The translations under genes were made by a program, and so were the position numbers. This document shows, piece by piece, positions 14,976 through 63,655 of a stretch of DNA of 64,000 nt (its first letter is position 1; every line of letters starts with the position of its first letter). The notes beneath the pieces were generated by a model. The model ran no database searches, was not told the DNA's origin, and saw only the letters and a program-made list of their open reading frames with translations. Source of the stretch: Arenibacter hampyeongensis (GTDB taxonomy: Bacteria; Bacteroidota; Bacteroidia; Flavobacteriales; Flavobacteriaceae); assembly GCF_002909255.1 (NCBI RefSeq), contig NZ_PIOB01000004.1, forward strand, positions 62,001-126,000. Direction: 5' to 3'.

Positions 14976-14979
14976 CATC

Positions 14980-43933: not shown

Positions 43934-44056
43934 CGTCAGTTCGAGTGAAATGGCGATAGCCATTTAGTATCGAGAACCGAGTGCTTCTCGATACAATTTT
44001 ATTTCGCTGCGCTTCATAAAATCACCTGCCTGCCGGCAGGCAGGCTCGAAGAGACG
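43934..44056 (+). repeat. Family E cloverleaf element, copy with palindrome insertion
   Basis: Outer arms GTCAGTTCGAGTG and a degenerate CTCGAAGAGAC partner enclose three hairpins: AAATGGC-GATA-GCCATTT (43948-43965), TATCGAGAA...TTCTCGATA (43968-43993) and ATTTTAT...ATAAAAT (43996-44022). The 20-bp palindrome CCTGCCTGCCGGCAGGCAGG is inserted at 44025-44044 between the third hairpin and the closing arm. Confidence 0.85.
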
Positions 44057-44177
44057 GGCAAACGACCTTGAACTTTGAACTTTGACCATCAAACTTTCAA
44101 CATAACGATTTCGTCTAGTTTCCAGGCTCTAGAATCTAGATTCTCAATACTCACTTCTCCTCACTCAATACTTGGTA

Positions 44178-45602
44178 TCAACAGTCACTAAGGTATACCC
44201 CTACGGCGAGTCCGCCTTCCGAGGTTTCTTTGTATTTGGTGCTCATATCCTTGGCGGTTTCCCACATAGTGTTCACCACCTTGTCCAGCGGAACTTTAGC
44301 ATTGGCGGGATCGGAGTCCAGCGCCAATTCAGCGGCATTGATGGCTTTTATGGCACCCATGCAATTTCTTTCTATACAGGGAATTTGTACCAAACCACCT
44401 ATGGGATCACAGGTGAGGCCCAAATGATGCTCCATGGCAATTTCTGCCGCCACAAGCACTTGCTCGGGAGTACCGCCCATTAGTTCTGTCAGTGCGGCAG
44501 CTGCCATGGCAGAGGAAACCCCAATTTCGGCCTGACAACCACCCATGGCCGCAGAAATGGTAGCACCCTTTTTAAAAATACTGCCTATTTCACCTGCTAC
44601 CAGGAGGAACTGTTTTATGTGCTCAAAAGTGGCTTCATGGTTTTCGATGACCATATAGTACATAAGGACTGCAGGGATTACCCCAGCACTGCCGTTGGTA
44701 GGGGCGGTGACCACACGTCCCAAGGAGGCGTTTACCTCATTGACACTTAGGGCAAAGCAACTTACCCATTTGAGAATGGAACGGAATTTAACTTCGGTCT
44801 GTCTAATGGTGAGCAACCATTCCTGTGGAGTGGAATAGGGGAGGTCCCCTTTTAATTTTATATGGGTATCGTATGCCCTTCTTCGTACATTTAGTCCACC
44901 AGGAAGGTTTCCTTCGGTATGGCACCCAATGTACATACACTCCAACATAGTATCCCAAATGTGGTGTAGTCCTTTATCTATTTCATCATCCGATCGTAGG
45001 GAACGTTCATTTACCAGCACCAATTGGGAAATGGATTTATTTTCTTTTTTGCAGGCGGCCAATAGGTCAACCCCTTTTTCTATAGGAAAGGGGAAGGATT
45101 TGAAAACTTCCAGTTTCTTTTTGGAACGCTTGAGTTCTTCCTTGACTACAAAGCCCCCACCAATGGAATAGTAGGTTTCCTTGATTGATTTGCCGTTGGA
45201 TAGGCTAGCGGTAAAAGTGAGTCCATTGGCATGAAATGGTAAAAACTCCCTCTTAAAAACGATATCCAATTTAGGGTCGAAGGCAATTTCCAGGGAGTTG
45301 TTCAAAAGCAACTTCTTATTTTCTTGAATACCTTTTATAATACCACTTATGTTTTCAATGGGTATGGTTACCGGGTCGGCTCCGGAGAGGCCAAGCATAA
45401 TGGCCAAGTCGGTGGCGTGACCCTTCCCGGTCAAGGAGAGGGAACCATAAACTTCTATTTGGATGTGGGTAACGGAAGGGAATACTTTTTTTTCCAGTAG
45501 TTCCCCAATAAAACGGTCGGCGGCACGCCATGGTCCCAAAGTATGGGAACTGGATGGGCCGACCCCGATTTTAAGCATATCGAAAACACTAATGCACTCC
45601 AT
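44178..45602 (-). CDS. sdaA: L-serine ammonia-lyase (L-serine dehydratase), single chain
   Basis: A 474-residue iron-sulfur enzyme that deaminates L-serine to pyruvate and ammonia. The beta domain is N-terminal ([28 protein letters not shown]). The catalytic alpha domain has [40 protein letters not shown] and the cysteine-bearing cluster region [29 protein letters not shown]. Its length matches single-chain SdaA. It is monocistronic, with long repeat-filled spacers on both sides. glyA, which makes or uses serine, is encoded elsewhere in the window. Confidence 0.95.
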
Positions 45603-46928
45603 TTACCAATAGGTTAAAATTCTTAGTAAATATAGGATTATCTATTGGGAAATGGATCAATTTGAAAGTGAGTTAATGTGGTAATTTGATAATTGGTTAA
45701 TTTGAAAATGAGATAATTTGAAAATGTACCAATGTACCAATGTGGAAATCTATCGATGGATTAATGAATTAATTTGAAATTGAGGCCATGTGGTAATTTG
45801 AAAATTTACTAATGGGTTATTATTGAAAAAAGTATTTTAAGTAAAAATTTCGGCTCCTTCCCTTGGGCCTATTCTGAGCGGAGTCGAAGCATATGGGAAG
45901 GTGGATTCTCCGCCGGCAGCGGAGGAGACGGAAGGGATTGAGAGCCCAGGCTTAGGAATGGGATATAGGATAGCGTATAGGGTGAAACACCCCTAATCTC
46001 CAGGCAAAAGGCGGGAAAGGCTTTCTCAAGAGGGGAATATTTTTTTCGCCAAAAGTCCAACCTCTAGATTCTTACTACTCTTTTCAAACTTCGATTTCGA
46101 CTACGCCTGCCTGCCGGCAGGCAGGCTCAATCTCCGTAAGGGCTTTCAACTTTCAACTTTTGAACATTTGACATAAACATTGTTTATTGCTAATTGTTAA
46201 CTGTTCATTGGAATAGGCAGATTGCCGCGCTTCTCCTCCCTATCGGAAGGCAAGCCTCCCTAACGGCAGATAAACTCGCAATGACGGTTTTAAATCTTTC
46301 GTCAGTTCGAGTGAAATGGCGATAGCCATTTAGTATCGAGAACCGAGTGCTTCTCGATACAATTTTATTGCGCTGCGCTACATAAAATCACTCGAAGTGA
46401 CGGGCGATAGGTATTTTGTATCGAGAACGATTTTTTGCACGCCTTCTACTTCTCGCTACAATTTTGCTCCAATTCGTTATGCAAAATCACCTGCCTGACG
46501 GCAGGCAGGCTCGAAGCGACGGGCGATAGGTATTTTGTATCGAGAACCGGATTTTGCACGTTGTTCACTTCTCGATACGATTTTGCTTCAATTCGTTATG
46601 CAAAATCACCTGCCTGCCGGCAGGCAGGCTCGAAGTGACGACTTTCAACATAAGCCTTATGTCTAGGTTCTAGCATCTAGGCTCTAGATTCCTTCTTCTC
46701 CTACGGAGTGAAGGGCATTCGACTTTGAACCTTGAACTTTGAACTTTGAACTTTCAACTAAAAAATGCATTAGTGATTGCAATGGATAGCTCCCAAGAGG
46801 GGACATTGAAATGGACACTATTGGGACTAGGAATGGAAAGCACGACCGCTTGGCATATTTTTGGCCAAGGGGGAATGCCCAAAAAAGCATATAAACCTGC
46901 AATTTTTGGTCAATTAAAGGGTTGGTTC
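45603..46928. repeat. Repeat mosaic II (between divergent sdaA and dnaK)
   Basis: Family A block (45652-45830); family F (45851-45958); family G CGATTTCGACTACG / CTCAATCTCCG split by the 20-bp palindrome (46088-46137); C words; family D (46218-46286); three family E units in tandem (46300-46640); CTAGA words and a TTGAACTTTGAAC run to 46760. The last 160 bp before the dnaK promoter lack these repeats. No gene is supported. Confidence 0.8.
46300..46640 (+). repeat. Three family E cloverleaf units in tandem
   Basis: Unit 1 (46300-46403) is complete at 104 bp and has no inserted palindrome, so it shows the ancestral junction AAAATCA|CTCGAAG. Units 2 (46401-46522) and 3 (46518-46640) lack the left outer arm, have longer second-hairpin loops, use ATTTTGC/GCAAAAT in the third stem, and each carries the palindrome insertion (46490-46509 with one mismatch; 46609-46628 perfect). 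Confidence 0.85.
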
Positions 46929-46969
46929 TGACAGCTTGTCATATTTTTTGTCATGGCACAATCATTGAC
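46929..46969 (+). promoter_or_regulatory. dnaK heat-shock-type promoter: inverted repeat plus -24/-12-like element
   Basis: TGACAGCTTGTCA (46929-46941, arms TGACA/TGTCA), a 12-bp spacer, then TGGCACAATCATTGAC (46954-46969), close to the sigma-54 consensus TGGCAC-N5-TTGCA. clpB has the same parts with the same 12-bp spacer. The predicted start is near 46980, giving a leader of about 40 nt. Confidence 0.55.
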
Positions 46970-47020
46970 CTAATAGACGCGAGTGCTAAAAAGAATTTTG
47001 AAAACAGTAAATATATAAAC

Positions 47021-48931
47021 ATGAGTAAAATTATTGGAATAGATTTAGGAACAACAAACTCTTGTGTTTCCGTAATGGAGGGTAACGAAGCTGTTGTTAT
47101 CCCAAACGCAGAAGGTAAGAGAACTACTCCATCTGTCATTGCTTTTGTAGAGGGTGGCGAAATTAAGGTTGGAGATCCTGCAAAAAGACAGGCCGTTACA
47201 AATCCCACCAAAACCATTTATTCCATAAAACGTTTTATGGGAAATAAATACTCTGAATCTACCAAGGAAGCCACAAGGGTACCTTATAAGGTAGTTAAGG
47301 GAGACAACGATACTCCTAGAGTAGATATAGATGGACGTTTGTATTCTCCACAGGAACTTTCGGCTATGATCCTTCAGAAAATGAAGAAAACTGCCGAGGA
47401 TTACTTGGGACAAACGGTTACTAGAGCGGTAATTACCGTTCCTGCATACTTTAACGATGCACAAAGACAGGCTACAAAAGAGGCCGGTGAAATTGCCGGA
47501 CTTACCGTAGAAAGAATTATAAACGAGCCTACCGCAGCCTCTTTGGCCTACGGGATGGACAAAAAAGACACGGATCAGAAAATAGTGGTTTTCGATTTTG
47601 GTGGAGGAACACATGATGTTTCCATCCTGGAATTGGGAGACGGTGTTTTTGAAGTATTGGCCACAGATGGGGATACCCACTTGGGTGGTGATGACGTGGA
47701 TCAAAAGATAATCGACTGGTTGGCCGATGAGTTCAACAAAGAGGAAGGCATAGACCTACGTAAGGATGCTATGGCATTGCAACGTTTGAGAGAGGCTGCT
47801 GAAAAGGCAAAAATTGAGTTGTCGTCTTCTGCGCAGACTGAAATTAACCTTCCATACGTTACCGCTACGGCTTCAGGACCTAAGCATTTGGTGCGTACTT
47901 TGACCAAAGCCAAGTTTGAGCAATTGATCGATGATTTGGTAAAACGTACCATTGAGCCTTGTGCCACTGCCTTAAAAGCGGCTGGATTAAGCAAGAGCGA
48001 TATAGACGAAATTATTTTGGTTGGTGGTTCTACAAGGATTCCTGCGGTACAGGATGCCGTTGAGAAGTTCTTTGGGAAGAAACCTTCCAAAGGTGTTAAC
48101 CCTGATGAGGTAGTTGCAGTAGGTGCCGCTATACAAGGTGGGGTATTGACAGGAGATGTAAAAGACGTTCTTTTATTGGATGTTACGCCTTTGTCCCTAG
48201 GTATTGAAACTATGGGTAGCGTAATGACCAAATTGATAGACGCCAACACGACCATCCCTACAAAGAAATCGCAAGTATTCTCCACGGCAGCTGACAATCA
48301 GCCATCTGTTGAGATCCATGTATTGCAGGGAGAACGCCCAATGGCAAAGGATAACAAGACTATAGGACGTTTCCATTTGGATGGTATTCCACCAGCACAA
48401 AGAGGAACGCCACAGATCGAAGTTACCTTTGATATTGATGCCAATGGTATTATAAAAGTATCGGCTACCGATAAGGCTACCAACAAAACGCAGGACATTA
48501 GAATTGAAGCTTCTTCAGGATTGACAGAGGAAGAGATCAAAAAGATGAAAGCGGAAGCTGAAGCCAATGCAGAAGCTGATAAAGTAGCTAAGGAAACTGC
48601 CGATAAATTGAACGAGGCCGACGGAATGATCTTCCAGACTGAAAAGCAATTGAAAGAATTTGGCGAAAAATTGTCCGCTGATAAGAAGAAGCCTATTGAG
48701 GATGCCTTGGAAGAACTTAAAAAGGCCCATGAAGCCAAAGATTTGGCTTTGATTTCTCCAGCTTTGGATAAGATCAATGAGGCTTGGAAAGTAGCTTCTG
48801 AGGAAATATACAAAGCCCAGGCAGATGCACAACAAGGTGCACCGGCCGGTAGTGGAGATACAGCATCATCCAACGGAGAGGCCAAAGAAGCCGACAACGT
48901 GGAAGACGTAGATTTCGAGGAAGTGAAATAA
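47021..48931 (+). CDS. dnaK: Chaperone DnaK (Hsp70)
   Basis: A 636-residue ATP-dependent chaperone, the partner of ClpB. The start at 47021 ([21 protein letters not shown]) is certain from the family N-terminus; an upstream in-frame start would overlap the promoter. The ATPase domain has the phosphate-1, [13 protein letters not shown] phosphate-2 and [13 protein letters not shown] adenosine motifs. The substrate-binding domain follows ([13 protein letters not shown], then [22 protein letters not shown]). A lid and a tail ending in [12 protein letters not shown] complete it. No grpE or dnaJ is adjacent. A strong terminator follows. Confidence 0.98.
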
Positions 48932-48954
48932 GAACCTCAATTCATATATTAAAG

Positions 48955-48990
48955 ACCCCCTTCAAGCAATTGAAGGGGGTTTTGTGTTTT
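48955..48990 (+). terminator. Terminator of dnaK
   Basis: ACCCCCTTCAA (48955-48965) pairs with TTGAAGGGGGT (48970-48980) across GCAA, followed by TTTTGTGTTTT-type T-rich sequence. Confidence 0.85.
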
Positions 48991-50457
48991 ATATGGGTGC
49001 AGCCAAGAGCCAAGAGCCAAGAGGGAATTTGGTAATTTGAAAATGATTGAATTTGAAAATGGTTCAATGTTGAAAAAGGTCCTTTAAAGTAAAAAGTTTT
49101 AGCTCCTTCCCTTGGGCCTGTGCTGAGCGAAGTCGAAGCCACTGACTACCGAAGACTGTTCACTCTAAGAATCCGATTGCCACCCAGGCTACCCCTTCCG
49201 TCTTCTCCTACGTCGAAGCCACCTTCCCCTAGCTAGGGGAAGGAGCATCCATTAAATAACTTTCAGCACAAATCTTTAGTCTAGTCTCTAGGTTCCAGGT
49301 TCTAGCTTATAACTACACAATTCCAACTTTGAACATATCAACTTTCAACATTATAACACCTTTCTACTTCTCGATACAATTTTATTGCGCTGCGCTACAT
49401 AAAATCACCTGCCTGCCGGCAGGCAGGCTCGAAGTGACGGGCGATAGGCATTTTGTATCGAGAACCGAGTGCTTCTCAAACCAATTTTATTTCGTTTCAC
49501 TCCATAAAACCACTCGAAGTGACGACTTTCAACAGAAGACTTTAGTCTAGGCTCTAGCATCTAGGCTCTAGATTCTTCCTACGCTCAATCTCCGTGAGGA
49601 CTTTCAACTTTCAACTTTTGAACATTCGACATTATCATTGTTTATTGCTAATTGTTCACTGTTCACTGTAATAAGCAGATTGCCGCGCTGCGCCTCCATA
49701 TCGGCAGGTAAACCCGCAATGACAACTTTCAACACAAGATTTTAGTCTAGTCTCTAGCATCTTGGCTCTAGATTCTTCCAACGCTCAATCTCCGTGAGGA
49801 CATTCGTCATTGCGAGGAGCGATAGCGACGAAGCAATCTCACCATAGGAACGAGCAGATTGCCGCGCTGCGCCTCCCTATCGGTAGGCAAGCTCGCAATG
49901 ACGGGTTTTATTCTATCGTCAGTTCGAGTGAAATGCCGATAGGCATTTTGTATCGAGAACCGAGTGCTTCTCAAACCAATTTTATTTCGTTTCACTCCAT
50001 AAAACCACTCGAAGTGACGACCTTCCACTTTCAACTTTTAAACATAGGACATTGAAATTGTTGATTACTAATTGATCACTGTTCATTGTAATAAGCAGAT
50101 TGCCACGCTGCGCCTCCCTATCGGTAGGTAAACTCACTATGACGTCAGTTAATCATGTTAAACTAACAACCTACTATTGCCATTTGGCTAATGGCTTCTG
50201 GCTGAAAGCTGTTCACTGAAATCGCTTCTCGATACAATCCTCCTACGTCGGATCACTCGAAGTGACGACTTTCAACATTTGGACATTGAACCTTGAACAT
50301 TATCATTGTTTATTGTTAATTGTTCACTGTAAGAAGCAGATTGCCGCGCTGCGCCTCCCTATCGGTAGGCAAGCTCGCAATGAAGTCAGTTAATCATGTT
50401 AAACTAACAACCTACCATTGTCTAGTGGCTTCTGCCTAATGACTTAGCAAGAGACCA
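48991..50457. repeat. Repeat mosaic III (between convergent dnaK and metallophosphoesterase genes)
   Basis: AAGAGCC words; short A block (49021-49079); F pieces (49102-49250, ending in an inverted fragment); C words; E half with palindrome (49367-49440, palindrome 49408-49427); E without palindrome (49438-49524); G words; D (49676-49723); an inverted D pair (49805-49903); complete E (49917-50019); D (50096-50144); short E variant with ATCC/GGAT third stem (50224-50267); D (50337-50384). No gene is supported in 1.47 kb. Confidence 0.8.
49917..50019 (+). repeat. Family E cloverleaf element, complete, without palindrome
   Basis: 103 bp. The first hairpin is AAATGCC-GATA-GGCATTT, a compensatory swap relative to AAATGGC/GCCATTT in the 43934 and 46300 copies. 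The third hairpin is changed to TTTTAT...ATAAAA with a different loop (TTCGTTTCACTCC). The closing arm CACTCGAAGTGACG is intact. Confidence 0.85.
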
Positions 50458-51369
50458 CTACTTAATTTGAAGCCTTCTTGACTGTTCCCGGCCATGACCA
50501 TGGACCAAAATGGAATCTTTTTTGAATTCTACGGTGGAAAAGGCGGAAGTGCTATCGGTTTCTACCATGCCTTTAAAGGTGAGGTAATGCACTCCGTTTC
50601 TTTCCATATAATCGCCATGGTGGTTATGTCCATTAAAATAGAATTTTACATTGGGGTAGTTGTCGATTAAGGAGATGAGTTGGGTGCTGTTCCAAAGACG
50701 GTGGACCTTATCCTCGCCCATTACAGGGAAATGACAATAGAACCCAACATTTTCGTTATTCTCCGTAGCCAGTTTCAGTTCACTTTCCACCCATTGTAAT
50801 TGATCATGACTTAATCCGCCGTTCCAGGTTTGTAGGTTGGGAAGGTCCGATGTTGAAAGCAGGGTAAAGAGGGAGTCGGTCTGTGCTATTTTCTCGGGAG
50901 AAATGGCACCTTGATAGCTGAGGTCGTTGCCGTCCAGTATAATAAATCTCCAGTTGTTTTCCACCAAGCTGTAGTAGCGCTGGGTGAGGTTCATTTTGTT
51001 CATTACCTTGGATTTTAGGGAGTCGGCCACACTAAAATCATGATTGCCCAGCACGTGGTATTTCTTGGTCTTTAAAGCGTTCCAGATAGGGAGGACTGTA
51101 TCAAAACTACTGAAATCCCGATCTATGAAGTCGCCCAAATGAATGGCGTAATCCAGTTCTTCCTTATTAAGTGCGGTAACGGCTTGTTTTAATTTATGGG
51201 GGGAGTTTTTATAAAAACGGGAAGGGGAGGACTCGCAGTAGCAGTACTGACAATCGGCAATAATACCTATGGCCAGATCCTGTTGAGGTATATTTTTATT
51301 TTCCTTTGATCCGCAGGCGGTGAGTAGCGCGAGCAGGATGATACTTAATTTATTTTTCAGTAGGGTCAT
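50458..51369 (-). CDS. Calcineurin-like metallophosphoesterase, lipoprotein
   Basis: A 303-residue exported phosphoesterase. The start at 51369 (MTLLKNKLSIILLALLTAC) gives a lipobox; the upstream in-frame start adds 13 residues without purpose. The metallophosphatase motifs are all present: IGIIADCQ, HLGDFIDRD, LGNHDFS, then FYCHFPV and FNGHNHHGDY. An unusual CQYCYCE cluster follows the first motif. The substrate is unknown; ADP-ribose or CDP-alcohol phosphatases are the closest in layout. It is a lone gene flanked by repeat mosaics. Confidence 0.88.
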   Translation of the reverse strand: MTLLKNKLSIILLALLTACGSKENKNIPQQDLAIGIIADCQYCYCESSPSRFYKNSPHKLKQAVTALNKEELDYAIHLGDFIDRDFSSFDTVLPIWNALKTKKYHVLGNHDFSVADSLKSKVMNKMNLTQRYYSLVENNWRFIILDGNDLSYQGAISPEKIAQTDSLFTLLSTSDLPNLQTWNGGLSHDQLQWVESELKLATENNENVGFYCHFPVMGEDKVHRLWNSTQLISLIDNYPNVKFYFNGHNHHGDYMERNGVHYLTFKGMVETDSTSAFSTVEFKKDSILVHGHGREQSRRLQIK

Positions 51370-52857
51370 AGGGTAGAGGGGTTGGTTTAAAATGTCTACT
51401 ATGACCAAATATAGTTTTTTTTGGCTTTAGGAAGATTTTGGGGAAATTTGATAATTTGAAAATGGGATAATGTGGAAATGTATTAATGTGGAAATGTACC
51501 AATGGGGTAATGAATCAATGTATTAATGTGGAAATGTACCAATGACGGAATTGCCATAAGCCAAGAGCCAAGAGAAAAGAGAAGAGAATAAAGAGTCAAG
51601 AGCCTGAAGTGGTTAATTTGAAAATGAGTCAATTTGATAATTTGAAAATGTGGAAATGTACCAATGTACCAATGACGGAATAGCCAAGAGCCAAGAGCGA
51701 AGAGAAAAGAGTTTAGATTCTTCCAACGCTCAATCTCCGTGATTTCATCCGGTGGCTGAGCGTAGTCGAAGCCACTGACTACAGAAAACTGTTCACTAGT
51801 TAGCTACTATTGGCTCCCGATAACTATCGGGATGGCTAATGGCTTTTGCCTAAAGAGCTCTGACCACTGACCACTGACCACTGATTACTGCTCACTGAAA
51901 TCCCTTCTCGATACTATTTTATTGCGCTGCGCTACATAAAATCACCTGCCTACCGGGCAGGCGGGCGTAGTCGAAGCCACTGATTACTAATTACTGAATA
52001 CTGATCACTGCCCACCGGCTACTTCGATTTCGACTCCGCTCAATCTCCGTGATGACTTTCAACATTTGGACATTGAACCTTGAACATTATCATTGTTTAT
52101 TGCTAATTGTTCATTGTACACTGTAAGAGGCAGATTGCCGCGCTGCGCCTCCCTATCGGTAGGCAAGCCTCCCTAACGGCAGATAAACTCGCAATGACGG
52201 GTTTTGTTCTATCGTCAGTTCGAGTGAAATGCCGACAGGCATTTAGTATCGAGAACCGAGTGCTTCTCGATTCTATTTTGCTCCACTTCGTTATGCAAAA
52301 TCACCTGCCTGCCGGCAGGCAGGCTCGAAGTGACGGGCTGACCACTGTTCACTGTAAGAAGCAGATTGCCGCGCTGTGCCTGCCTGACGGCAAGGCAAGC
52401 TCACAATGACGGGATAGCCAAAAGCCAGGTGGCAAGAGTTAAAAAGGAAAAGACATAATCTAGTGTTAAGAGAAGAGAGAAAAGAATAAAGAGTCTAAAT
52501 TATAACTACTCATAACTAATAACTGACCACTGAAAACTAACTGTCGCCTACTTCGATTTCGACTACGCTCAATCTCCGTGAGGGCATTCGTCATTGCGAG
52601 GAGCGATAGCGACGAAGCAATCTCTTCATAGGAACAAGCAGATTGCCGCGCTGCGCCCGCCTGACGGCTGGGCAGGCTCAATCTCCGTGAGGACTTTGAA
52701 CATTAAACTTTGAACTTTAAATGTTTCAGTCACTGACTACTGTTCACTGAAGACTGACCACTGTATTCCCTTCTCGATACAATCCTCCTTCGTCGGATCA
52801 CTCGAAGTGACGAACTTTTGACTTTATAACATTATAACTTTCAACTTTACAACTGTC
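51370..52857. repeat. Repeat mosaic IV (between metallophosphoesterase and lactonase genes)
   Basis: A blocks (51449-51546, 51612-51673) alternating with AAGAGCC words; G words (51722-51780); family H CACTGACCACTG words; E half with a degenerate palindrome (51904-51975); D (52131-52199); complete E with palindrome (52213-52335); D (52362-52411); G; inverted D pair ending as a D/G chimera (52589-52690); H words; short E variant (52770-52812); C words ending one base before the lactonase stop. No gene is supported in 1.49 kb. Confidence 0.8.
52213..52335 (+). repeat. Family E cloverleaf element, complete, with palindrome
   Basis: First hairpin AAATGCC-GACA-GGCATTT; third hairpin ATTTTGC...GCAAAAT, where other copies have ATTTTAT...ATAAAAT. 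The perfect palindrome lies at 52304-52323, at the same junction as in other copies. Confidence 0.85.
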
Positions 52858-53732
52858 TCACTCAAGTCCATAAAAATCCACCGCATTCTGCCCCATAATG
52901 GCGGCTTGTTCAGTGGTGCTAAGGCTGGAAATGAAATTTGTGGTCAGCTCTTTTACCTGGGCGTAGGATCCTGCAACAAGGCAAACGGGCCAATCGGAAC
53001 CGTACATGCAGCGTTCAGGGCCAAAGGCCTCAAGGACCAAGAGCATATAGGGATGTATCTGTTCCGGGGTCCAGCTATTGAAATCAGCTTCGGTGATCAT
53101 GCCCGAGATTTTGCAGTGTACATTTTCATGTTTGGCGACTTCTTGCATCATAGCCGCCCAACCGTCATAAAAGCCATCCTTGATATAAGGTTTGGCAATA
53201 TGGTCGATGACGAATTTTTGGTTGGGGAACTTTTTCACGAATTCTAAGGTAGCTCCCAATTGATGTGGAAAAATAAGGATGTCATAGACCGCTCCGTATT
53301 GTTCCAATTTGGAGATGCCCCTTAAAAAATCTTGTCTCAATAAAAAATTATGGTCCGCTTCTCCTTGAACAATATGTCGGTACCCCTTTAAATGCTTATC
53401 CTTGGCGTATTTTTCCAATTCTTTGTCTACATGGGCACTTCTTAGATCTACCCAGCCCACGACGCCTTTAACAAAAGCGTTGTTGTGGGCGTGTTCCAAA
53501 AGGAAATCGGTTTCCGCCAAGGTCTGGTCCGCCTGTACCGCCACACAACCATCTACACCGTTTTTGGCAAACACAGGTTTAAGGTCCGAGGGTAAAAAAT
53601 CCCTACGGATAACGCTCATTTGCTCGTTTATCCAGGAGTGCTTTACGGGGTTGTATTTCCAGAAATGTTGATGGGAATCTATAATCATGTTAGAAGGTTT
53701 AATGTATTATGTTATAAAGTTGAAAGTTATAA
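52832..53732. repeat. 17-bp inverted repeats flanking the lactonase gene
   Basis: TTATAACTTTCAACTTT at 52832-52848 and its exact reverse complement at 53716-53732 bracket the gene. They are family C words and mark the point where all families change orientation. Confidence 0.6.
52858..53688 (-). CDS. Amidohydrolase-2 family sugar lactonase (L-fuconolactonase-like)
   Basis: A 276-residue cytoplasmic TIM-barrel hydrolase of the COG3618 type. It opens MIIDSHQHFWKYNP, with the HxH pair, and has KGVVGWVDLRS, KGYRHIVQGE, FVIDHIAKPYI, CKISGM and the late metal/catalytic MYGSDWPV. Relatives hydrolyse L-fucono-1,5-lactone, L-rhamnono-lactone or similar. It is the third gene of the minus-strand operon after the Zn dehydrogenase and the UxaA-type dehydratase. 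That order (oxidise sugar, open lactone, dehydrate acid) supports an oxidative deoxy-sugar pathway; the actual sugar is inference. Confidence 0.85.
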   Translation of the reverse strand: MIIDSHQHFWKYNPVKHSWINEQMSVIRRDFLPSDLKPVFAKNGVDGCVAVQADQTLAETDFLLEHAHNNAFVKGVVGWVDLRSAHVDKELEKYAKDKHLKGYRHIVQGEADHNFLLRQDFLRGISKLEQYGAVYDILIFPHQLGATLEFVKKFPNQKFVIDHIAKPYIKDGFYDGWAAMMQEVAKHENVHCKISGMITEADFNSWTPEQIHPYMLLVLEAFGPERCMYGSDWPVCLVAGSYAQVKELTTNFISSLSTTEQAAIMGQNAVDFYGLE

Positions 53733-53792
53733 AGTTGAAAGTTGAAAGTTTTCTGAGTTTGATGTTCTTTAGCTCTCCTTCGGAGAGGCCAG

Positions 53793-55445: not shown

Positions 55446-55462
55446 ATTGTTATGCTATTGTT

Positions 55463-56470
55463 TTAAAATTCTACGGTGGCCTTGATCACTCCTGTGGTGG
55501 GTTTCAACCAGCTGTCGAAATTCTCCTTCATCTCCGAGAAATGCACGTTGTGGGTAATGAACGAATCGGTAGGGAACTGGTCCAGGATGTCTATGACCCG
55601 TTCAAAATCGGCCACCGTGGCATTCCTGCTGCACATCAGGGTGGTCTCCTTGGCGTGTATGGCCGGATGGGCAAAGGTAAGCTCCCCTTTGGAGAGTCCC
55701 ACCAAGATGTACCTTCCTCCGTGCGACATATAGTTGGGTCCCTGTTCCAGGGCTCCCTTGTGGCCCGAGGCATCGAATACCGCTGTCGCCATATCGCCCT
55801 TGGTAATCTCCGAAATCTGTTTTACGGGGTCTTCGGCCACATTTACAATATGGTCCACCCCGATCTTTTCCTTGGCGTACTGCAGTCGGTCCTGGTTCAT
55901 GTCCAGGGCGATGACCTTGGCCCCTTCGATCTGGGCCAGCTTCATGATGCCGATTCCTATGGGACCACAACCTACGACCACAATGGTTTCACCAGGGACC
56001 AACCGTGCCCGTCGGATGGCATGTGCCGCTATGGCCAAAGGCTCCACAATGGCCATCTGTTCGTTGGTCAGCTGCTTGGCGGGCAACAATATATCCAACG
56101 GTACGGTGATCTGTTCCTGCATGCCGCCGTCCGTGTGTATGCCCAGCACCTGGATCTGGGTGCAGCAATTGGTCTTCCCGTTCCTACAGGCAACACAATG
56201 GCCACAGCTCAGGTAGGGCATGATCACCACATTGTCCCCGGCTTCAATGCCCTTGTCGTTTTCGTCGATCTCCAGCACGGTGGTGGCCAGCTCATGGCCA
56301 AGGATCCTGGGATAGGTGAAAAAGGCTTGGTTGCCGGTATAGGCGTGAAGGTCGGTACCGCAGATGCCCACCTTGTTCACTTTTAAAAGGGCTTCCCCTT
56401 TTTTACGTATAGGGGCCTCTTTTTCCTTTAATTGAAAGTCACCAGGTTCCTCACAAACTATGTATTTCAT
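55463..56470 (-). CDS. Zinc-dependent medium-chain dehydrogenase, GC-rich
   Basis: A 335-residue MDR-family polyol/sugar dehydrogenase. The catalytic zinc ligands are in GICGTDLHAYTG and LGHELATTV. The structural zinc cysteines are in SCGHCVACRNGKTNCC. The Rossmann motif is VVVGCGPIGIGIMKLAQ, followed by ALDMNQDRL (NAD preference). It is first in the operon with uxaA and the lactonase. It may oxidise the free sugar or a later keto-deoxy intermediate. Base composition is unlike the neighbours: 34 of 60 bases are G or C at 55861-55920 and 37 of 60 at 56101-56160, against 27 of 60 in a uxaA sample. This suggests recent acquisition. Confidence 0.9.
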   Translation of the reverse strand: MKYIVCEEPGDFQLKEKEAPIRKKGEALLKVNKVGICGTDLHAYTGNQAFFTYPRILGHELATTVLEIDENDKGIEAGDNVVIMPYLSCGHCVACRNGKTNCCTQIQVLGIHTDGGMQEQITVPLDILLPAKQLTNEQMAIVEPLAIAAHAIRRARLVPGETIVVVGCGPIGIGIMKLAQIEGAKVIALDMNQDRLQYAKEKIGVDHIVNVAEDPVKQISEITKGDMATAVFDASGHKGALEQGPNYMSHGGRYILVGLSKGELTFAHPAIHAKETTLMCSRNATVADFERVIDILDQFPTDSFITHNVHFSEMKENFDSWLKPTTGVIKATVEF

Positions 56471-57141
56471 GTGTTTTTGTCTTTTGTTTTTATTGGTTTT
56501 ATCTGATTGTTATCAATCATTTGATGGCCGTTGGATTACAATCCAAAAGCGAGTATGTTAATATAGTTCAAGGGTGTAATTTAACCAAAAAGATTTAAAA
56601 ATTGTTGATTGTACAAAGTTCAATGTTGAAAGTTCAATGTTAACAGTAGGGAAGGGTTAAATGTGTATTGAGAAGTGGGAAATTAGTATAGATTGATGAG
56701 TAATGAGTATTGAGAGAAAAAAGAAAAGAGAAAAGAGAATGCAGTGAACATTGTTCTGTGGGCTGAACCCTTTAGCCATCCCGATAGTTATCGGGAGGCA
56801 AAAGGCAATAGGCAAAAGTTCAATGTTAAAAAGTTGAAAGCCGTCATTGCGAGTTTACCTGCCGTCAGGCGGGCGCAGTGTGGCAATCTGCTTCTTGACA
56901 GTAAACAGTCTTTAGTAATCAGTAAATAGTAGCCAGCCCGTCACTTCGAGTGATTTTATGTAGCGTAGCGAAATAAAATTGGTTTGAGAAGCACTCGAAC
57001 TGACGGTAGTGTCTAGTTTCTAGGCTCTAGAATCTTAAAAGATGTTACTGATCTAAATCATTTCAGTAAACCTGCCGCCGTATTACCTTCGGAAAAATAA
57101 GGCAGAGGTACATTTGATGCGTTTTAAATATAAAATTGAAT
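56471..57141. repeat. Repeat mosaic V (between divergent dehydrogenase and FMN-lipoprotein genes)
   Basis: 56471-56580 is the upstream region of the sugar operon and is free of repeats. Then come C words in reverse orientation (TTGAAAGTTCAATGTT), AAGAG words, a reverse D (56842-56890), reverse H words, a reverse E (56939-57005, with TTTTATG...AATAAAA stem) and a CTAGA stretch (57010-57035). No gene is supported. Confidence 0.75.
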
Positions 57142-57807
57142 ATGATGAAAATAAAAATACTACTGATGATCTTGGTTGTCTTGGGATGGAACTGCAAGGA
57201 AAATCCAGAACAGCCGAAACAAAAAATCGAAGCAGTAAAAGAGGAAATCCAAACCACACCCGAAATACCGGACAGTATTGAGGAGATTGCCACCTTTGTA
57301 GCGCCACCTTTGGCGGATACTACAAACCTTCTGGACCTAATAATTTTTAAGGAGATCAATACCAGCGATAAGGTTTCTACAATAGAAATGGCTAGAGCAG
57401 GAGATCTTTATAATATGTTGAAGACGCGTGGGCAAGCCACATCGCTGCCCATATTTGAAATAAGGGATACGGACCTGGTTGTCCTACCAGTTCAGGGTGT
57501 TGGTTTTGGTGGTGCTATCTGGGCAAAAGTTCTTTTGGATAAAAAAACGCTGGAAATAAAAAAAATTGCATTTGAGCACCAAGCAGAATCTGATGGTTAT
57601 GGTGCTGCATTTGTCGAAAAAACATTTGAAGATCAGTTCTTAGGCGTGAAAATTAACCTGAATGAAAACACCTTTACATTGCAAAAAGCCGGTGACGACG
57701 TGCATTTTGTTGACGGGATTTCCGGTGCAACCATGACAAGTAAAGGTGCCGTTACCATGGTGAATGAGGGATTGCGAAAGTATGGTGGCTTTTTGAAGGA
57801 GAATTGA
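57142..57807 (+). CDS. Orphan FMN-binding (NqrC/RnfG-like) lipoprotein
   Basis: A 221-residue exported lipoprotein (MMKIKILLMILVVLGWNC). The start could also be the adjacent ATG at 57145; a TTG at 57136 is less likely. After a Pro/Glu-rich linker comes one FMN_bind domain: GFGGAIWAKVLLDKKTLEIKKIAFEHQAESDGYGAAF and then VDGISGATMTSKGAV. SGAT is the motif whose Thr carries covalently bound FMN in NqrC. It has no transmembrane helix of the NqrC type and no other nqr gene nearby. It may accept electrons at the membrane surface; covalent flavinylation would need an ApbE encoded elsewhere. Confidence 0.85.
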   Translation: MMKIKILLMILVVLGWNCKENPEQPKQKIEAVKEEIQTTPEIPDSIEEIATFVAPPLADTTNLLDLIIFKEINTSDKVSTIEMARAGDLYNMLKTRGQATSLPIFEIRDTDLVVLPVQGVGFGGAIWAKVLLDKKTLEIKKIAFEHQAESDGYGAAFVEKTFEDQFLGVKINLNENTFTLQKAGDDVHFVDGISGATMTSKGAVTMVNEGLRKYGGFLKEN

Positions 57808-58897
57808 GTAAGCAGTCTTCAGTAGTCAGTAAGCAGTTGGAAGTGGCTGAAACAATGAACAGTTAACAAATGGCAATAAACAGTTTTAATGTTCAAAGTT
57901 TAATGTTCAAGGTCTTTACGGAGATTGAGCCTTCCTATCGGCAGACAGGCGGAGTCGAAATCGAAGTAAACGGATGTGAGTAAACAGTGAACAGTGATCA
58001 GTAACCTTTAGGCAGAAGGCATTAGCCATTAGCCAATAGTTAGTTTTTACTGAACAGTCCTATAAGCCGCTATTGTCCGGTCGAGCCTGCCTTCCGCAGG
58101 AAGGCGCATCCCGATAACTATTGGGAGAGAACTATATTCTGCTTAAAAGTTGAAAGTCGTCACTTCGAGTGATTTTATGAAGCTCAGCGCAATAAAATTG
58201 TATCGAGAAGCACTCGAACTGACGATAGAACCAAGAACGTCATTGCGAGCCTGCCCGGCCTTCAGACGGGCGCAGCGCGGCAATCTGTTTATTTCAGGTT
58301 TGGGATTGCTTCGTCGCTATCACTCCCTGCCTAGCCGTCAGGCAGGCTCGCAATGACGGATCTCATTCAGAACGTAATACATTCCCCTCTTGAGAGAGCC
58401 TGTCACGCGTTTACCGCGGGAGGTTAGGAGTGTGTTTTGTAATTAGACCAGGGGGTGTATTTAAAACCTCGCAACTTCTCCATTCTCCTTTGGCTTGGGC
58501 TTTTAATCCCTTCCGTCTCCTCCGCCAAATGGTGGAGAATCCACCTTCCCTTATGCTTCGACTCCGCTCAGCACAGGCCCAAGGGAAGGAGCTAAAACTT
58601 TTACTTAAAAGGACCTTTTTCAACATTGAACCATTTTCAAATTAACCCATCTTCAAGTTTTCAAATTAACTCATTTCCACATTGGTAAATTTCCACATTT
58701 TCATATTAACCAATTGATTCATTAACCCATCGGTACATTTTCACATTAACCCCTTTCCTCATTTCCAAATTATCAAATTAACCTTTACCCTCCGTCTCTT
58801 CGAGTAGTCCTACGAAGTAGAATAGTATCTACAAGTAACAGCGGAAACTTCCAAGAAAAAACGCTATCTTTCTTATAACAATTTTAGCTCTAGAATT
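57808..58897. repeat. Repeat mosaic VI (between FMN-lipoprotein and saccharopine-dehydrogenase-like genes)
   Basis: All in reverse orientation: H words (57810-57850), C words, G (57908-57965), H, E half (58158-58224), D composite with inverted partner (58238-58358), F (58498-58593) and A (58627-58788). 58360-58490 holds no family recognised elsewhere, and 58790-58897 is the probable promoter region of the next gene. No gene is supported. Confidence 0.78.
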
Positions 58898-60037
58898 ATG
58901 TCGTACAACATGGTTATTGCAGGTGCCGGGGGTATTGCACAGGCCGTTGGATTGATACTTTCCGAATGGGGCAACGTTCCTCTTAAGATCTTTATTGGTA
59001 ATCGCACCCTGGAAAAGGCAGAAAAAGTGGCCCATTGGATCGGGGAGGGGACTACCAACCCCTCAGTGGCAAAGGCATTTTGTCTTTCCGATATGGGCCT
59101 GACGAAAGAAATGGAGGAAATTTTTACCCAGGGCGATGTCCTGCTCGATTGCCTCCCCGGAAGTCTGGCGCCCAAAATGGCGAGTTACGCCAAAAAGTTT
59201 GGACTTCATTACGTTAACCTCACCGAGTATGTAGCGGAAACGAATGAAATAATGGAATTGGCCAAAAATGCCGAAACCGGTTTTGTATTGCAATCAGGTC
59301 TGGCGCCAGGGTATGTAGATATTTTGGCCCATTACCTCTATCAGGAATTTTGTAGAAAGCATAGTGTAGACAAAGTGGATAAGCTACAATTCAAGGTTGG
59401 GGCCTTAACGGAGCATGCCGTGGCACCCCATTACTACGGCTTTACCTGGAGTCCTGTAGGCGTTGCTACCGAGTATGTTAAGGATGCCGAAGCCTTGCGG
59501 GATTATAAAAAGGTACAGTTGAAGTCGCTCTCGGAGCGGGCACAGATTATTATAGATGGCAGGACCTATGAGGAAGACCTAACTTCAGGTGGGGCGGCCG
59601 ATCTGCCCGATGCCCTGTTGGCCAAGGTGCGTCATTTGGATTATAAGACCCTGAGGTATCCCGGACATTATGCCTGGGTAGAAAAACAATTGGCAGGTTC
59701 GGGAAAAGGGGATTCAGCCATTAAGACACTTCAGGAGAAAATGGAAACGGAAATCCCACATATAGAGCAGGATCAAATAGTGTTTTACGCCGCAGTAGAG
59801 GGCAAGGACAGTCATGGTATTCTAAGAAGGAGCGAGGCTTCCAATCTTATACTACCGCAAAAAGTAGGGAAGCACAGGTTAAGGGCCATACAGACTACTA
59901 CCGCAGCACCCATGGTACAGGCTGCTTTTATGCTGTTGGAGTCCAAACGCAAAGGGTTGATCCTGCAAAGTAAGATAGATCCAAAGCCCTTTTTAAACGG
60001 AAATTTTGTGGTGCCCGTTTATGGAAACATTAAGTAA
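58898..60037 (+). CDS. Saccharopine dehydrogenase-like NAD(P)-binding protein
   Basis: A 379-residue cytoplasmic protein. The N-terminal Rossmann motif is VIAGAGGIAQAVGLIL, followed by IFIGNRTLEKAEKVA (the Asn/Arg after strand 2 may indicate NADP). The segment DVLLDCLPGSLAPKMASYAKKFGLHYVNLTEY and the later LQSGLAPGYVDILAHYLYQEF and GALTEHAVAPHYYGFTWSPVGVATEYV fit the saccharopine dehydrogenase / carboxynorspermidine synthase superfamily. The exact reaction is open; lysine-pathway and polyamine roles are both possible. It is monocistronic, between a repeat mosaic and a 250-bp spacer. Confidence 0.85.
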   Translation: MSYNMVIAGAGGIAQAVGLILSEWGNVPLKIFIGNRTLEKAEKVAHWIGEGTTNPSVAKAFCLSDMGLTKEMEEIFTQGDVLLDCLPGSLAPKMASYAKKFGLHYVNLTEYVAETNEIMELAKNAETGFVLQSGLAPGYVDILAHYLYQEFCRKHSVDKVDKLQFKVGALTEHAVAPHYYGFTWSPVGVATEYVKDAEALRDYKKVQLKSLSERAQIIIDGRTYEEDLTSGGAADLPDALLAKVRHLDYKTLRYPGHYAWVEKQLAGSGKGDSAIKTLQEKMETEIPHIEQDQIVFYAAVEGKDSHGILRRSEASNLILPQKVGKHRLRAIQTTTAAPMVQAAFMLLESKRKGLILQSKIDPKPFLNGNFVVPVYGNIK

Positions 60038-60287
60038 ATGACCCTTCTTTTAAGTTAGGAGAATAGGATTTTCTAATTTTTACTCACTAAGTGAGATTTG
60101 AATGCTCCAACGCTTGAGTCGAAATGTTATCAGTAGTTTCCATCCGATGCCTCATGGGCTTGCCCTTGGGTAATTGACTTTTATTAAATTATCTTAAATG
60201 ATTGCTATGTGCTTTAACCTTTCAGCAAAAATGCGTAATATTATTTTTTATTTAAAAAACATCCATCCACCATTTAAATTCAACCTA

Positions 60288-63005
60288 ATGAATCGGTTTT
60301 TTGTAGTCCTTCTAGTTTTAGTTTTTATTTCTTGTAATTCACGCCAAAAAAGTATTTCCATTTTACAGGTGCCGGGTAAAGACCAGTACAGTATTATTGA
60401 TGAAAATGGGATTTCTATCCTGGCCAGTGGGAGGTATGTAACTCCTGTAGGCGATAAATTGCGGATAACACATGATCCCTTTGGGATGGCAGTATCTCCG
60501 GACGGTAGCAAGGCAGTTACCCTGCACGACGGGGTATTTACGGTAATAGATCTAACTAGTTTAAAGTCGACCAGAATCCCCAGCTATGATGGCACTATTC
60601 CTTCACCCTTGGCAAATGGGTCCTTTTTGGGGGTCGAATTTGCACAGGATTCCAAAACGGTTTATTTGAGTGGAGGAGATACAGGAGCGGTCATTCAATA
60701 TGACGTGGAAAGTCTTACCAAATTGGATTCCATTTCTTTAAATGGTATTGTCGATGGAAAGGATTACCAAGATAGTTTTACTTCGGATCTGCGGATAAAT
60801 GAAGCCCAGAACGAATTGTTGGTGTTAGATCGTGCAAACTTTAGAATGGTGCGTATCGATTTGGATTCTAAAAAAATAAAAGGATCCGTTAATGTAGGCC
60901 GTCAACCTTTTGGCTTGGCAATCAGTCCCGATAAAAAGCAGGCATTTGTGGCCAATGTTGGTGTGTATTCCTATCCTTTGATCGAGGGTGCTGCCCCGGC
61001 CAATTACGATTCCTTAATGATTTCTCATCACGCCTACGGGGACAATACCAAAGAGTCCATTGAGGGTACTGTAGTGGAAGGACGCAAAATTCCGGGACTG
61101 GGAAGTCCGTTGCATCCGGATGCCATGAGTGTTTTTACTATAGACCTCGATAATAATAAGGTAATCAAAAAATTTAAGACTGGGCACCAAATAGGACAGA
61201 CGGTGGAAGATGCTGAAGTGGTTGGGGGAGCAAGTCCAAATTCCATTGCTGTTGGAAAGCAATTTGCCTATGTCACCAATGCCACCAACGACAATATCAC
61301 GATCATTGATCACCAGAGTCAGGAAATTGTGGGCCATATTCCCATTAAAGTCGATCCCCGTATCGACAAATACCGAGGCCTGTTGCCCTTTGGAATTACC
61401 ATGAGCAAGGACGAAAAAACATTGTATGTGGCCCTGTTGGGATTCAATGCGGTGGCCGTTATAGATATTCCATCCCAAACCACCAAGGGGCTTATCCCTA
61501 GTGGATGGGGGCCTACACGAGTGGAATTGTCCAAAGATGAAAAGAACATATATATTATTACCTGTAGAGGTCTTGGTTCTGGACCCAATGGTGGAAGAGA
61601 TTTTGTGGAACCACCTCAGGGGGATTATATAGGCGATATTCAATTGGGCAGTTTCCAAAGGGTACCTATGCCCACTGAGGAGAAACTAGCGGAGTACACC
61701 AAAATAGCCATAGACAATACCTTTAGGGAAAGTACCGTTACGGATGACGGGTCCAACCCTTTGCCTCCCTTGCCAAAATTGCGTCAGAGTCCTATAAAAC
61801 ATGTGGTATATATTACCAAGGAGAACAGGACCTATGATGAGGTTTTTGGGCAGCTTAAAACAGGAAAGGGAGATAGTACCTTGGCCCGCTATGGTGTTAA
61901 TAATTCCTATACCTTACCGGATTCGTTACAAGCACAATTCCCCAACCTGAGAATTTCTCCCAACCATCATAAAGCCGCTAAGCAATTTGCTTATTCGGAC
62001 AATTACTATTGTGATAGTGATGCATCCGTACATGGCCACCATTGGTTGGTGGGTGTTATACCCAACGAGTGGGTAGAGGCCAATGCCAGTGTAAGTAAAT
62101 CGGCCAAAATATTTTCCGATGCCCCAGGGCGTCGTCACCCGGGAACCATTGGCAGTGTAGACCCCGAGGACTATGCGGAGATTGGGGGGCTATGGGAAGC
62201 CTTGGATAGGGAAAAGGTTTCTTTCTATAATTTTGGACAGGCCAATGAAACGGCACACGTACGCGAGGAATGGTACGATACCAATACAGGGGCGGCACAT
62301 GGGGTGATGGTGCCAATGCAAAAAGCACTTTTTACAAGGACTAGCCACGACTATGCCGGTTATAATATGAATATTCCCGATCAATACCGAATGGATCAGT
62401 TTGAAAGGGAGTTTACAGAGAAATGGATCGAAGGTGAGGAAGACATGCCGCAATTGGTGACCATGATGCTGCCCAACGATCACGGGGCAAGAGTCCGTCC
62501 GGAAGATGGATATCCTTATCCACAATCCTTTATGGTAGATAATGACCTTGCGGTTGGTAGGGTATTACATTTCCTTTCAAGGACCAAATACTGGAAGAAT
62601 ATGCTTGTGATTATCACGGAGGATGACCCACAAGGTGGCGTAGATCATGTGGATGCCCATAGGTCTATTCTAATGATGGCAGGCCCTTATGTAAAAAAGG
62701 GATATGTTTCCAATACCCATGCTAATTTTGGGGCCATTTTAAAAACGATGTACAACATATTGAATGTTCCTTATGTAAATCAGTTTGACGTTACGGCTTC
62801 CTTGTTGCAGGATTTCTTCACTTCGGAACCCGACTTCACTCCTTATACTTTGGAGCGTCATGATGAGCGAATCTACAACGCTGAACTTTCAATGAAGAAG
62901 TACAATAAAACCATTGATTGGCGCAAAATAGAACAAGGCCCACCAATGGATAACGAGGACGATGCCCGGGTTAATCATTATGAGAACAAGACGGATGAGG
63001 AGTAG
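60288..63005 (+). CDS. Bifunctional YncE-type propeller / phosphoesterase-family lipoprotein
   Basis: A 905-residue exported lipoprotein (start 60288, MNRFFVVLLVLVFISC; upstream in-frame ATGs give no signal). Residues 25-480 form a YVTN/YncE-type seven-bladed propeller (PFGMAVSPDGSKAVTLHDGVFTVIDL, GRQPFGLAISPDKKQAFVANVG, LPFGITMSKDEKTLYVALLGFNAVAVIDI). Residues 510-850 form a phosphoesterase (PF04185/alkaline-phosphatase superfamily) domain with HVVYITKENRTYDEVFGQL, the VHGHHWL histidines, MMLPNDHG and ITEDDPQGGVDHVDAHRS as metal and catalytic motifs. The natural substrate is unknown; phosphodiesters or phospholipids are plausible. Confidence 0.88.
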   Translation: MNRFFVVLLVLVFISCNSRQKSISILQVPGKDQYSIIDENGISILASGRYVTPVGDKLRITHDPFGMAVSPDGSKAVTLHDGVFTVIDLTSLKSTRIPSYDGTIPSPLANGSFLGVEFAQDSKTVYLSGGDTGAVIQYDVESLTKLDSISLNGIVDGKDYQDSFTSDLRINEAQNELLVLDRANFRMVRIDLDSKKIKGSVNVGRQPFGLAISPDKKQAFVANVGVYSYPLIEGAAPANYDSLMISHHAYGDNTKESIEGTVVEGRKIPGLGSPLHPDAMSVFTIDLDNNKVIKKFKTGHQIGQTVEDAEVVGGASPNSIAVGKQFAYVTNATNDNITIIDHQSQEIVGHIPIKVDPRIDKYRGLLPFGITMSKDEKTLYVALLGFNAVAVIDIPSQTTKGLIPSGWGPTRVELSKDEKNIYIITCRGLGSGPNGGRDFVEPPQGDYIGDIQLGSFQRVPMPTEEKLAEYTKIAIDNTFRESTVTDDGSNPLPPLPKLRQSPIKHVVYITKENRTYDEVFGQLKTGKGDSTLARYGVNNSYTLPDSLQAQFPNLRISPNHHKAAKQFAYSDNYYCDSDASVHGHHWLVGVIPNEWVEANASVSKSAKIFSDAPGRRHPGTIGSVDPEDYAEIGGLWEALDREKVSFYNFGQANETAHVREEWYDTNTGAAHGVMVPMQKALFTRTSHDYAGYNMNIPDQYRMDQFEREFTEKWIEGEEDMPQLVTMMLPNDHGARVRPEDGYPYPQSFMVDNDLAVGRVLHFLSRTKYWKNMLVIITEDDPQGGVDHVDAHRSILMMAGPYVKKGYVSNTHANFGAILKTMYNILNVPYVNQFDVTASLLQDFFTSEPDFTPYTLERHDERIYNAELSMKKYNKTIDWRKIEQGPPMDNEDDARVNHYENKTDEE

Positions 63006-63655
63006 TGAACAATAAACTGTTTTAAAGTTCAAAGTTTAATGTTAAAGGTTAAAGAATTTGTGGCTTCGACTACGCTCAGCCACCGGATGAAGTTTACGGA
63101 GATTGAACCTGCCTATCGGCAGACAGGCGTAGTCGAAATCGAAGTAGCCGAAAGTTTATTTTCAGTGATCAGTTGACTGTGAGCAATAAATAGTTTTAAA
63201 GTTCAAAGTCTTTGCGGAGATTGAGCGTAGTCGAAATCGAAGAGGTGAGGTAGTAGAGAGAAGTAATTAGTAAACAGTGGGCAGTGTTCTTCAGCCAAAA
63301 GGCAATAATTTGTTTGTTCAACATTATTAACTGACGTCATTGCGAGCCTGCCCGGCCGTTAGGCGGGTGATCCGACGAAGGAGGATTGTATCGAGAAGTA
63401 GACGTTTTACACCAAACTGGTTCTCGATACAAAATGCCTAACGGCATTTCACTCGAACTGACGAAAGAACAGAGAAGCAAAGTCGAATGCCCTTCATTTC
63501 GAGCCTGCTTACCGTCACTTCAAGCCTGCCTGCCGGCAGGCAGGTGGTTTTATGGAGTGAAACGAAATAAAATTGTATCGAGAAGTAGACGGCACCGAGA
63601 AGCACTCAAGTTTAAGATGTTAAATTTGATTACAACCCAACCTTGTATATCACCA
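63006..63655. repeat. Repeat mosaic VII (between convergent phosphoesterase and TonB-receptor genes)
   Basis: Reverse-oriented C words; a G piece (63060-63145, TGGCTTCGACTACGCTCAGCC and GTCGAAATCGAAG); H words; D/E chimera (63334-63370 running into 63369-63463); E with the palindrome at 63525-63544 (63513-63611). No gene is supported. Confidence 0.75.

Follow-up and report, generated by a model that had tools for sequence, protein, structure and literature searches.

A YGTC-tagged, probably REP-like hairpin repeat in the spacers of Arenibacter hampyeongensis and related Flavobacteriaceae

The window analysed here is a 64,000-nucleotide stretch of the Arenibacter hampyeongensis genome (G000:C23:62001-126000; the source genome, G000, has 5.43 Mb in 28 contigs) whose spacers contain a dispersed repeat of about 104 bp. 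A preliminary description, made from the letters of the window, took this repeat for a cloverleaf with an outer stem enclosing three hairpins. Comparison of its sequence with further copies indicates that it is formed by two different small tagged hairpin units placed tail to tail, and is not one cloverleaf. The units are probably a YGTC-tagged, non-autonomous DNA repeat, similar to repetitive extragenic palindromic (REP) sequences, that acts as folded single-stranded DNA.

The repeat unit and its clamp pair

Alignment of full and partial copies divides the cloverleaf into two half units that point in opposite directions. The conserved object is the half, which has ~40-60 nt and the form (Y)GTCA-S-TTCGAG-hairpin-TATCGAGAA-S (Y is T or C, S is G or C). 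Unit U1 reads CGTCAGTTCGAGTG-hairpin-GTATCGAGAAC and unit U2, on the other strand, CGTCACTTCGAGTG-hairpin-GTATCGAGAAG. At the sequence level the unit is defined by its (Y)GTCA tag, a clamp S-TTC/GAA-S, a GA facing a GA, one G-C pair and a hypervariable hairpin. The outer stem of the cloverleaf is interrupted by a G.G mismatch that is constant and falls on the sixth base of the copy. The odd base (G in U1, C in U2) complements the last base of its own unit (C in U1, G in U2), and the mismatch is constant because S pairs with the final S inside the same unit.

The two clamp bases form a standard or wobble pair in 420 of 429 distinct units, with six types of pair represented (GC 225, CG 162, AT 17, TA 6, GT 5 and TG 5); the non-pairing combinations are CC (5), GG (3) and AG (1). 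The pair is found in 353 of 358 units of a smaller set. Clamp bases were left free in the extraction of units; the searches that fetched the loci demanded G or C at both positions and always required the termini. The base preceding GTCA in the 429 units is T in 227, C in 184, G in 11 and A in 7, GTC itself being demanded by the pattern. The first base after 176 solitary units is T in 74, A in 47, C in 45 and G in 10, and later bases are mixed.

Units are found singly or as tail-to-tail dimers with ~21 nt between the partners. In 75 distinct dimers (spacer <60 nt, 60 loci) the clamp pair within the unit is present 147 times out of 150 (145 Watson-Crick and two wobble pairs), whereas the cross-unit pair of the cloverleaf at the odd position is formed in only seven of the 75, against 28.9 ± 3.8 with random partners and a minimum of 17 in 2000 shuffles. 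The half is the unit because halves stand alone and because this cross-unit pair is avoided; the cloverleaf was accordingly rejected both as the unit and as the conserved structure that the preliminary description had proposed. The partners of a dimer mostly differ in their clamp pair.

Neighbouring units less than 400 nt apart have their tails facing in 71 cases, their tags facing in 33 and the same direction in 51. All 75 dimers join unlike hairpins, with a median similarity of 0.43. Randomly paired units are equally unlike (0.44), so the unlike hairpins of dimers were rejected as evidence that like ones are avoided. Neighbours in the same direction are alike (median similarity 0.91, with 38 of 60 above 0.8), often as near copies, which shows that local duplication is common.

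Two tandem arrangements were seen. L014 1685-2250 (G000 C3, 18186-18756) is an array with a 176-bp period that has four U1 units without a U2 partner. L316 (G168 C1, about 2891220-2891330) has tandem partial units with a short GCA-type stretch in place of GTCACTTCGAG.

The inner hairpin and its loop

The inner hairpin is hypervariable yet self-complementary. In 311 distinct inner parts the longest arm has a mean length of 6.1, versus 3.5 in shuffled sequences, the DNA folding energy is -3.9 versus -0.7, and 73% fold at z < -2. Within a gapless alignment of the 34 distinct units of inner length 22, 92.4% of cells are paired (70.6% when shuffled) and 88 cells have double changes, compared to 28.2 in shuffles and 11-39 in slid-structure controls. 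The paired changes on both sides of the stems, brought forward in the preliminary description, are thus real and the structure is conserved beyond simple duplication; the evidence from the window alone is weaker than was claimed (see the last section).

The loops tend to be of the G..A form, a rule followed on the tagged strand only. The motif GA-N-GN(N)A-N'-GA has 59 matches there, N and N' being complementary in 50 and not in nine, and the other strand has none of either sort. In the rest of the examined DNA (both strands, overlapping loci included) 386 of 1446 matches are complementary and 1060 are not. The complementary cores of the units comprise 13 distinct sequences in 41 loci, with A-T, C-G, G-C and T-A as N-N' pairs. 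GNA or GNNA loops outnumber the mirror type 36 to 3 in unit hairpins, compared to 24 and 17 among 1228 control hairpins.

RNA tetraloops of this kind are GNRA. The four-base G..A loops of the units are mostly not of this form, being GNYA in 13 of 17 cases, many from the window's own genus, and this preference is a modest hint towards DNA. GAA is described as the most stable DNA triloop owing to a sheared G-A pair, a pair common to GNA loops (PMC9828363). The telomeres of Streptomyces are likewise reported to contain GNA-capped DNA hairpins with sheared G.A pairs (PMC7205883). These are chromosome ends, unrelated to the units in sequence and role, and the likeness is an analogy only. Some of the unit loops recur in a second spacer family, GTCATTGCGAG..GCAATC, of which 21 distinct inner parts were compared.

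Distribution and turnover

In the source genome BLAST gives 28 matches to the 104-bp copy, and the exact pattern fits 25 units, of which many are solitary; the reversed pattern used as control has no match. The search of relatives advised in the preliminary description was productive: a pattern with fixed termini and tail and a free hairpin has matches in 124 of 299 family genomes, and its reversed control has none. A phylum-wide sample yielded 14 positive genomes out of 148, distributed as 11 of 15 in the own family, two of two in a second family of the order, none of 20 in other orders of the class and one of 111 outside the class. A scan of named genomes gave, among the matches listed, single metagenome-bin records named Bacteroidia, Chlorobiota and Candidatus Peribacteria.

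Copies lie in spacers, as first described. Between 43501 and 64000 of the window there are 57 unit termini or tails at ≤1 mismatch, of which two are inside listed open reading frames (ORFs); both are 9-mers with one mismatch and probably occur by chance. In loci L093-L172, seven of 177 units fall within ORFs that were retained, which may include spurious ones. One U2 of Flaviramulus multivorans (L155 3242-3281) is in frame within a linker of a protein which we take to be the small subunit of methylmalonyl-CoA mutase. The linker is ~11 residues longer than that of the closest orthologue and exceeds those of 29 out of 30 orthologues.

Orthologous spacers in congeners of genome G168 have units present or absent at three sites. 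Site 1 has one U1 in G168 and G299, two in G301 and G304, and none in G300, G302 and G303; one hairpin was replaced wholesale between unchanged flanks in G301. Site 2 has a U1 in G168 and G304 and none in G299, G300 and G301, the anchors being poor in G302 and G303. Site 3 has a U2 in G168, a U2 with a single changed tail base in G301 and none in G299, with poor anchors in the other four genomes. Comparison of the window with the congener G212 shows matched genes 84-95% identical and the compared spacers rebuilt. The spacer after dnaK has ~1.4 kb in the window (49012-50452) and 3.7 kb in the congener (L077 11708-8008).

Such turnover might come about without selection, if old spacer repeats were spread by recombination and if template switching (quasipalindrome correction) kept the arms alike and produced compensatory changes in one step. 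Template switching is reported to create and maintain hairpins (PMC8794818), and the mechanism would suit the wholesale hairpin replacement at site 1, the module swaps and the chimera found in the window and the frequent local duplication of units. Taken alone, however, it predicts neither that the loop rule should hold on one strand only (50 and 9 matches versus 0 and 0) nor that dimers should have unlike clamps, and it is an unlikely explanation for the repeat.

Search for the enzyme that moves the units

The source genome codes for two uninterrupted Y1 transposase genes (PF01797; L010/L020 and L011/L021) and a broken one. Both uninterrupted genes are flanked by other repeats, and a linkage of the units to a REP-associated tyrosine transposase (RAYT) of the Y1 type was rejected for this genome. 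One of the two, at L021 2050-3110 (G000 C1, about 205.5-206.6 kb), stands among repeats of type ACCTGCAAGGTTTCAAAAACCTTGTAGGT; at site 1 of G302 a repeat similar to this type stands in place of the unit.

Y1 genes were also sought in 28 unit-bearing genomes with 8 to 76 units each, picked out of the 124 positive ones either for a high number of units or because loci from them were already part of the analysis. A Y1 match is lacking in 17 of them, including G168 which has 56 units in a single contig. No unit terminus or tail was found within ~1.5 kb either side (or to the contig end) at the 34 Y1 loci examined, of 43 Y1 matches. At present the mover is not a resident Y1 transposase.

No convincing target-site duplication was found in 74 dimers and 176 solitary units, in 80 combinations of length and offset for each; the best z was 3.6 for dimers, in one combination, and 2.3 for solitary units. 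In the stretches examined no pair of facing units encloses a longer element that could hold a transposase, the only gaps being four of 421-554 nt, and an autonomous element at that place was rejected within these stretches.

The units could be classical REPs driven by a RAYT, with the Y1 transposase lost or found in other strains. They are REP-like in their tag, their inverted dimers, the missing target duplication and a fold like that of single-stranded DNA. Subclass 2.6 Y1 genes of Bacteroidetes are reported to be flanked by structures of an atypical kind, which are found repeatedly in the host genome (PMC6006769), and the source genome has the two uninterrupted Y1 genes. Yet the repeats flanking these genes are of other kinds, the unit motif is found at 0 of 34 Y1 loci and most of the genomes compared have units without a Y1 match, which gives this explanation a similarly small chance.

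Relationship to known repeat systems

CGTC-tagged REPs are described as lacking a dedicated transposase and were reported in Bacteroidetes, with Gramella forsetii named (Di Nocera et al. 2013, PMC3733652). According to their description, CGTC REPs share with the units the CGTC/TGTC tag outside the stem, the short palindromic structure in spacers, inverted dimers with one predominant arrangement (the paper's head and tail naming is not matchable to the units), unlike partners in the dimers of some families and no associated transposase gene, a point that for the units covers the Y1 kind only (0 of 34 loci). CGTC REPs are said to have a single 8-9-bp stem starting with AT and a 4-5-nt loop, unlike the 4-bp clamp, GA/GA, G-C pair and variable hairpin of the units. 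Their 3-nt tail is mostly CCA, whereas the units lack a CCA tail and the bases following them are mixed. As the unit fails these stem, loop and tail features of the published families it is reported here as a variant: it resembles the CGTC REP superfamily but, being set apart by the published descriptions, is not placed as a member. The G. forsetii family may be identical to it.

Who moves CGTC repeats and why dimer partners differ are questions left open in print (PMC3733652) that are now testable. The clamp base provides an identity for each unit, the loop grammar is a prediction of DNA structure, and genomes like G168, in which Y1 matches are absent, limit where the enzyme is to be sought.

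REPs with the GTAG tag and a RAYT (TnpA-REP) are also non-autonomous, tagged, hairpin-forming repeats found in inverted pairs, and their RAYT is described as acting on REP DNA in single-stranded form (PMC3733652). The unit differs by its YGTC tag and by the absence of an associated Y1 gene at the loci examined. A search of the literature, including one by four motif strings, found no paper naming the unit among the matches listed. Rickettsia palindromic elements can sit in frame inside a gene, like the F. multivorans unit; their sequence is different, and the units are mostly intergenic.

Proposed mechanism and alternatives

In the REP-like mechanism favoured here the tagged strand would fold while it is single-stranded, as may happen in replication. 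An enzyme acting in trans and specific for single strands would recognise the tag, the clamp and the shape of the hairpin rather than its sequence, and this putative enzyme would move units without target-site duplication. Unlike clamps would lead each unit of a dimer to fold on itself and may mark its left versus its right end. A more specific version is put forward tentatively, as a possibility that may well turn out otherwise: the unit might be a substrate read by shape, with fixed tag and clamp, a hairpin of free sequence but fixed fold, a strand-specific G..A loop grammar and ends told apart by an unlike clamp pair, which a widespread non-Y1 enzyme for single-stranded DNA moves.

Several observations weigh against this interpretation. 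The constancy of the termini is partly built in, since the search patterns required them. The rule of unlike clamps has exceptions, namely seven of the 75 dimers and four additional tail-to-tail pairs of G127, these four all combining G-C with G-C. No moving enzyme was found in a search that covered Y1 genes and no other kind of transposase. Among the inner parts of the units 27% do not fold below z = -2 and 57 of 311 have no 5-bp stem. In the energy model the invariant part pairs preferentially in a different register, TCGA with TCGA; covariation of the clamp speaks for S-TTC/GAA-S, in which GA and GA face each other. The sequences are related, so the counts do not represent independent events and the statistics ignore kinship. 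Orthologous site 2 shows some uncompensated hairpin changes. An isogenic empty site was sought in the G168 congeners and none was found; other repeats also differ at the three compared sites, so that the exact insertion ends are not fixed and remain unproven.

An RNA element acting after transcription, as 3'-end stabiliser, processing site or terminator, is somewhat less probable than either of the two explanations given above. For 112 spacer units in L093-L172 with flanking ORFs callable within 1.5 kb, 55 are between convergent ORFs, 48 between co-directional and only nine between divergent ones, so that many units may be transcribed. Against such a role, the unit hairpin has no T-run following it, the four-base loops depart from GNRA, and any transcript of a tail-to-tail dimer has one unit in sense and one in antisense. 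Rfam 15 at gathering score matched no family in the window except a signal recognition particle (SRP) RNA at 14972-15078, far from the repeats, and membership in a known Rfam RNA family was rejected. This SRP RNA is of the Bacteroidales-type small class (RF04183).

The view that the ~104-nt cloverleaf is a selected structure, either a DNA cruciform or an RNA, is strongly disfavoured. The copy at 46300-46403 does fold in this way, as was claimed, with DNA parameters (-31.3 kcal/mol, z -8.6) as well as RNA parameters (z -7.9), but the preliminary description overlooked the fixed G.G mismatch of the outer stem. The odd-position pair is far below chance, units also stand alone, stems 2 and 3 are largely broken in the copy at 49917-50019, and the loop rule is tied to the tagged strand of each unit, which means that the second half of the cloverleaf obeys it on the opposite strand. 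Just as improbable is a miniature inverted-repeat transposable element (MITE), with terminal inverted repeats that are imperfect, of a DDE transposon: inverted ends of 14 bp flank an internal spacer in the dimer, but single units stand alone, no transposase-sized element was found between facing units in the stretches examined, and a target duplication of the MITE type was rejected, as none holds across lengths and offsets.

Repeat copies in the window

The units and derivatives found in the window are the following.

43934-43977, plus strand: U1 (CGTCAGTTCGAGTG, hairpin AAATGGC-GATA-GCCATTT, GTATCGAGAAC), left half of copy 1
43985-44056, minus strand: U2 of copy 1, with palindromic module 44025-44044 after CGAG and altered end GAGACG
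46300-46343, plus strand: U1 of the intact dimer
46350-46402, minus strand: U2 of the intact dimer (CGTCACTTCGAGTG, hairpin ATTTTATG..AATAAAAT, GTATCGAGAAG)
46417-46521, no strand assigned: truncated dimer, U1 tail and U2 with palindromic module 46490-46509
46536-46640, no strand assigned: truncated dimer, U1 tail and U2 with palindromic module 46609-46628
49368-49439, minus strand: U2 with palindromic module 49408-49427
49454-49524, no strand assigned: 5'-truncated dimer with decayed U2
49917-49960, plus strand: U1, hairpin AAATGCC-GATA-GGCATTT
49968-50019, minus strand: decayed U2 partner, with changed tail and weak hairpin
50225-50267, minus strand: solitary U2, hairpin ATCC-GACGTAGGA-GGAT, loop GA-C-GTA-G-GA
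51905-51965, minus strand: partial U2
52213-52256, plus strand: U1, hairpin AAATGCC-GACA-GGCATTT
52264-52335, minus strand: U2 partner, ATTTTGC version, with palindromic module 52304-52323
52770-52812, minus strand: solitary U2, ATCC version
56939-57005, plus strand: deletion derivative in which a U2 with changed tail is joined to a bare U1 terminus
58158-58224, plus strand: deletion derivative in which a complete U2 is joined to a bare U1 terminus
63335-63463, minus strand: chimera, with a complete U1 (63420-63463), tail and hairpin of U2 type and the far terminus of the CGTCATTGCGAG family
63513-63611, plus strand: U2 with changed terminus TTCAAG and palindromic module 63525-63544, then a remnant

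The four copies at 43934-44056, 46300-46403, 49917-50019 and 52213-52335 were all recovered as first described, together with both versions of stem 1 and all three versions of stem 3. It did not hold that each version is self-complementary. The copy at 49917-50019 has five contiguous pairs left out of the 10 of stem 2 and a weak stem 3, and its right half, folded by itself, does no better than shuffled sequences (z 0.11); stem 2 of 52213-52335 has one mismatch, and stem 1 is missing from 56939-57005 and 58158-58224. The two copies with AAATGGC/GCCATTT are 98% identical over 92 nt, for which reason these versions count as one event and not two, and the stem-3 versions resemble swaps of whole hairpins rather than base-by-base change. 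Caution is needed because paired changes in a repeat can indicate a fold other than the one that looks best by eye.

The insertion noted earlier in copies 43934-44056 and 52213-52335 is a 20-bp palindrome, CCTGCCTGCCGGCAGGCAGG, within the right arm (44025-44044 and 52304-52323). A palindrome of ~20 bp, CCTGCC..GGCAGG, is found directly after CGAG in U2 at these two places and at 46490-46509, 46609-46628 and 49408-49427, and again at 63525-63544, where it is preceded by CAAG (63521-63524) and not CGAG. In the CGTCATTGCGAG family GAG is followed by similar modules (58239, 63336 and, on the minus strand, 58357), and such modules are also present in the repeat beside a Y1 gene of the source genome, L020. 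The modules share their position as if one junction accepted hairpin modules. The spacers between 43800 and 64000 also contain long, word-like degenerate tracts, such as AACTTTGAAC, CCAATGTACCAATG, CCAAGAGCCAAGAG and CAGTGAACAGT.

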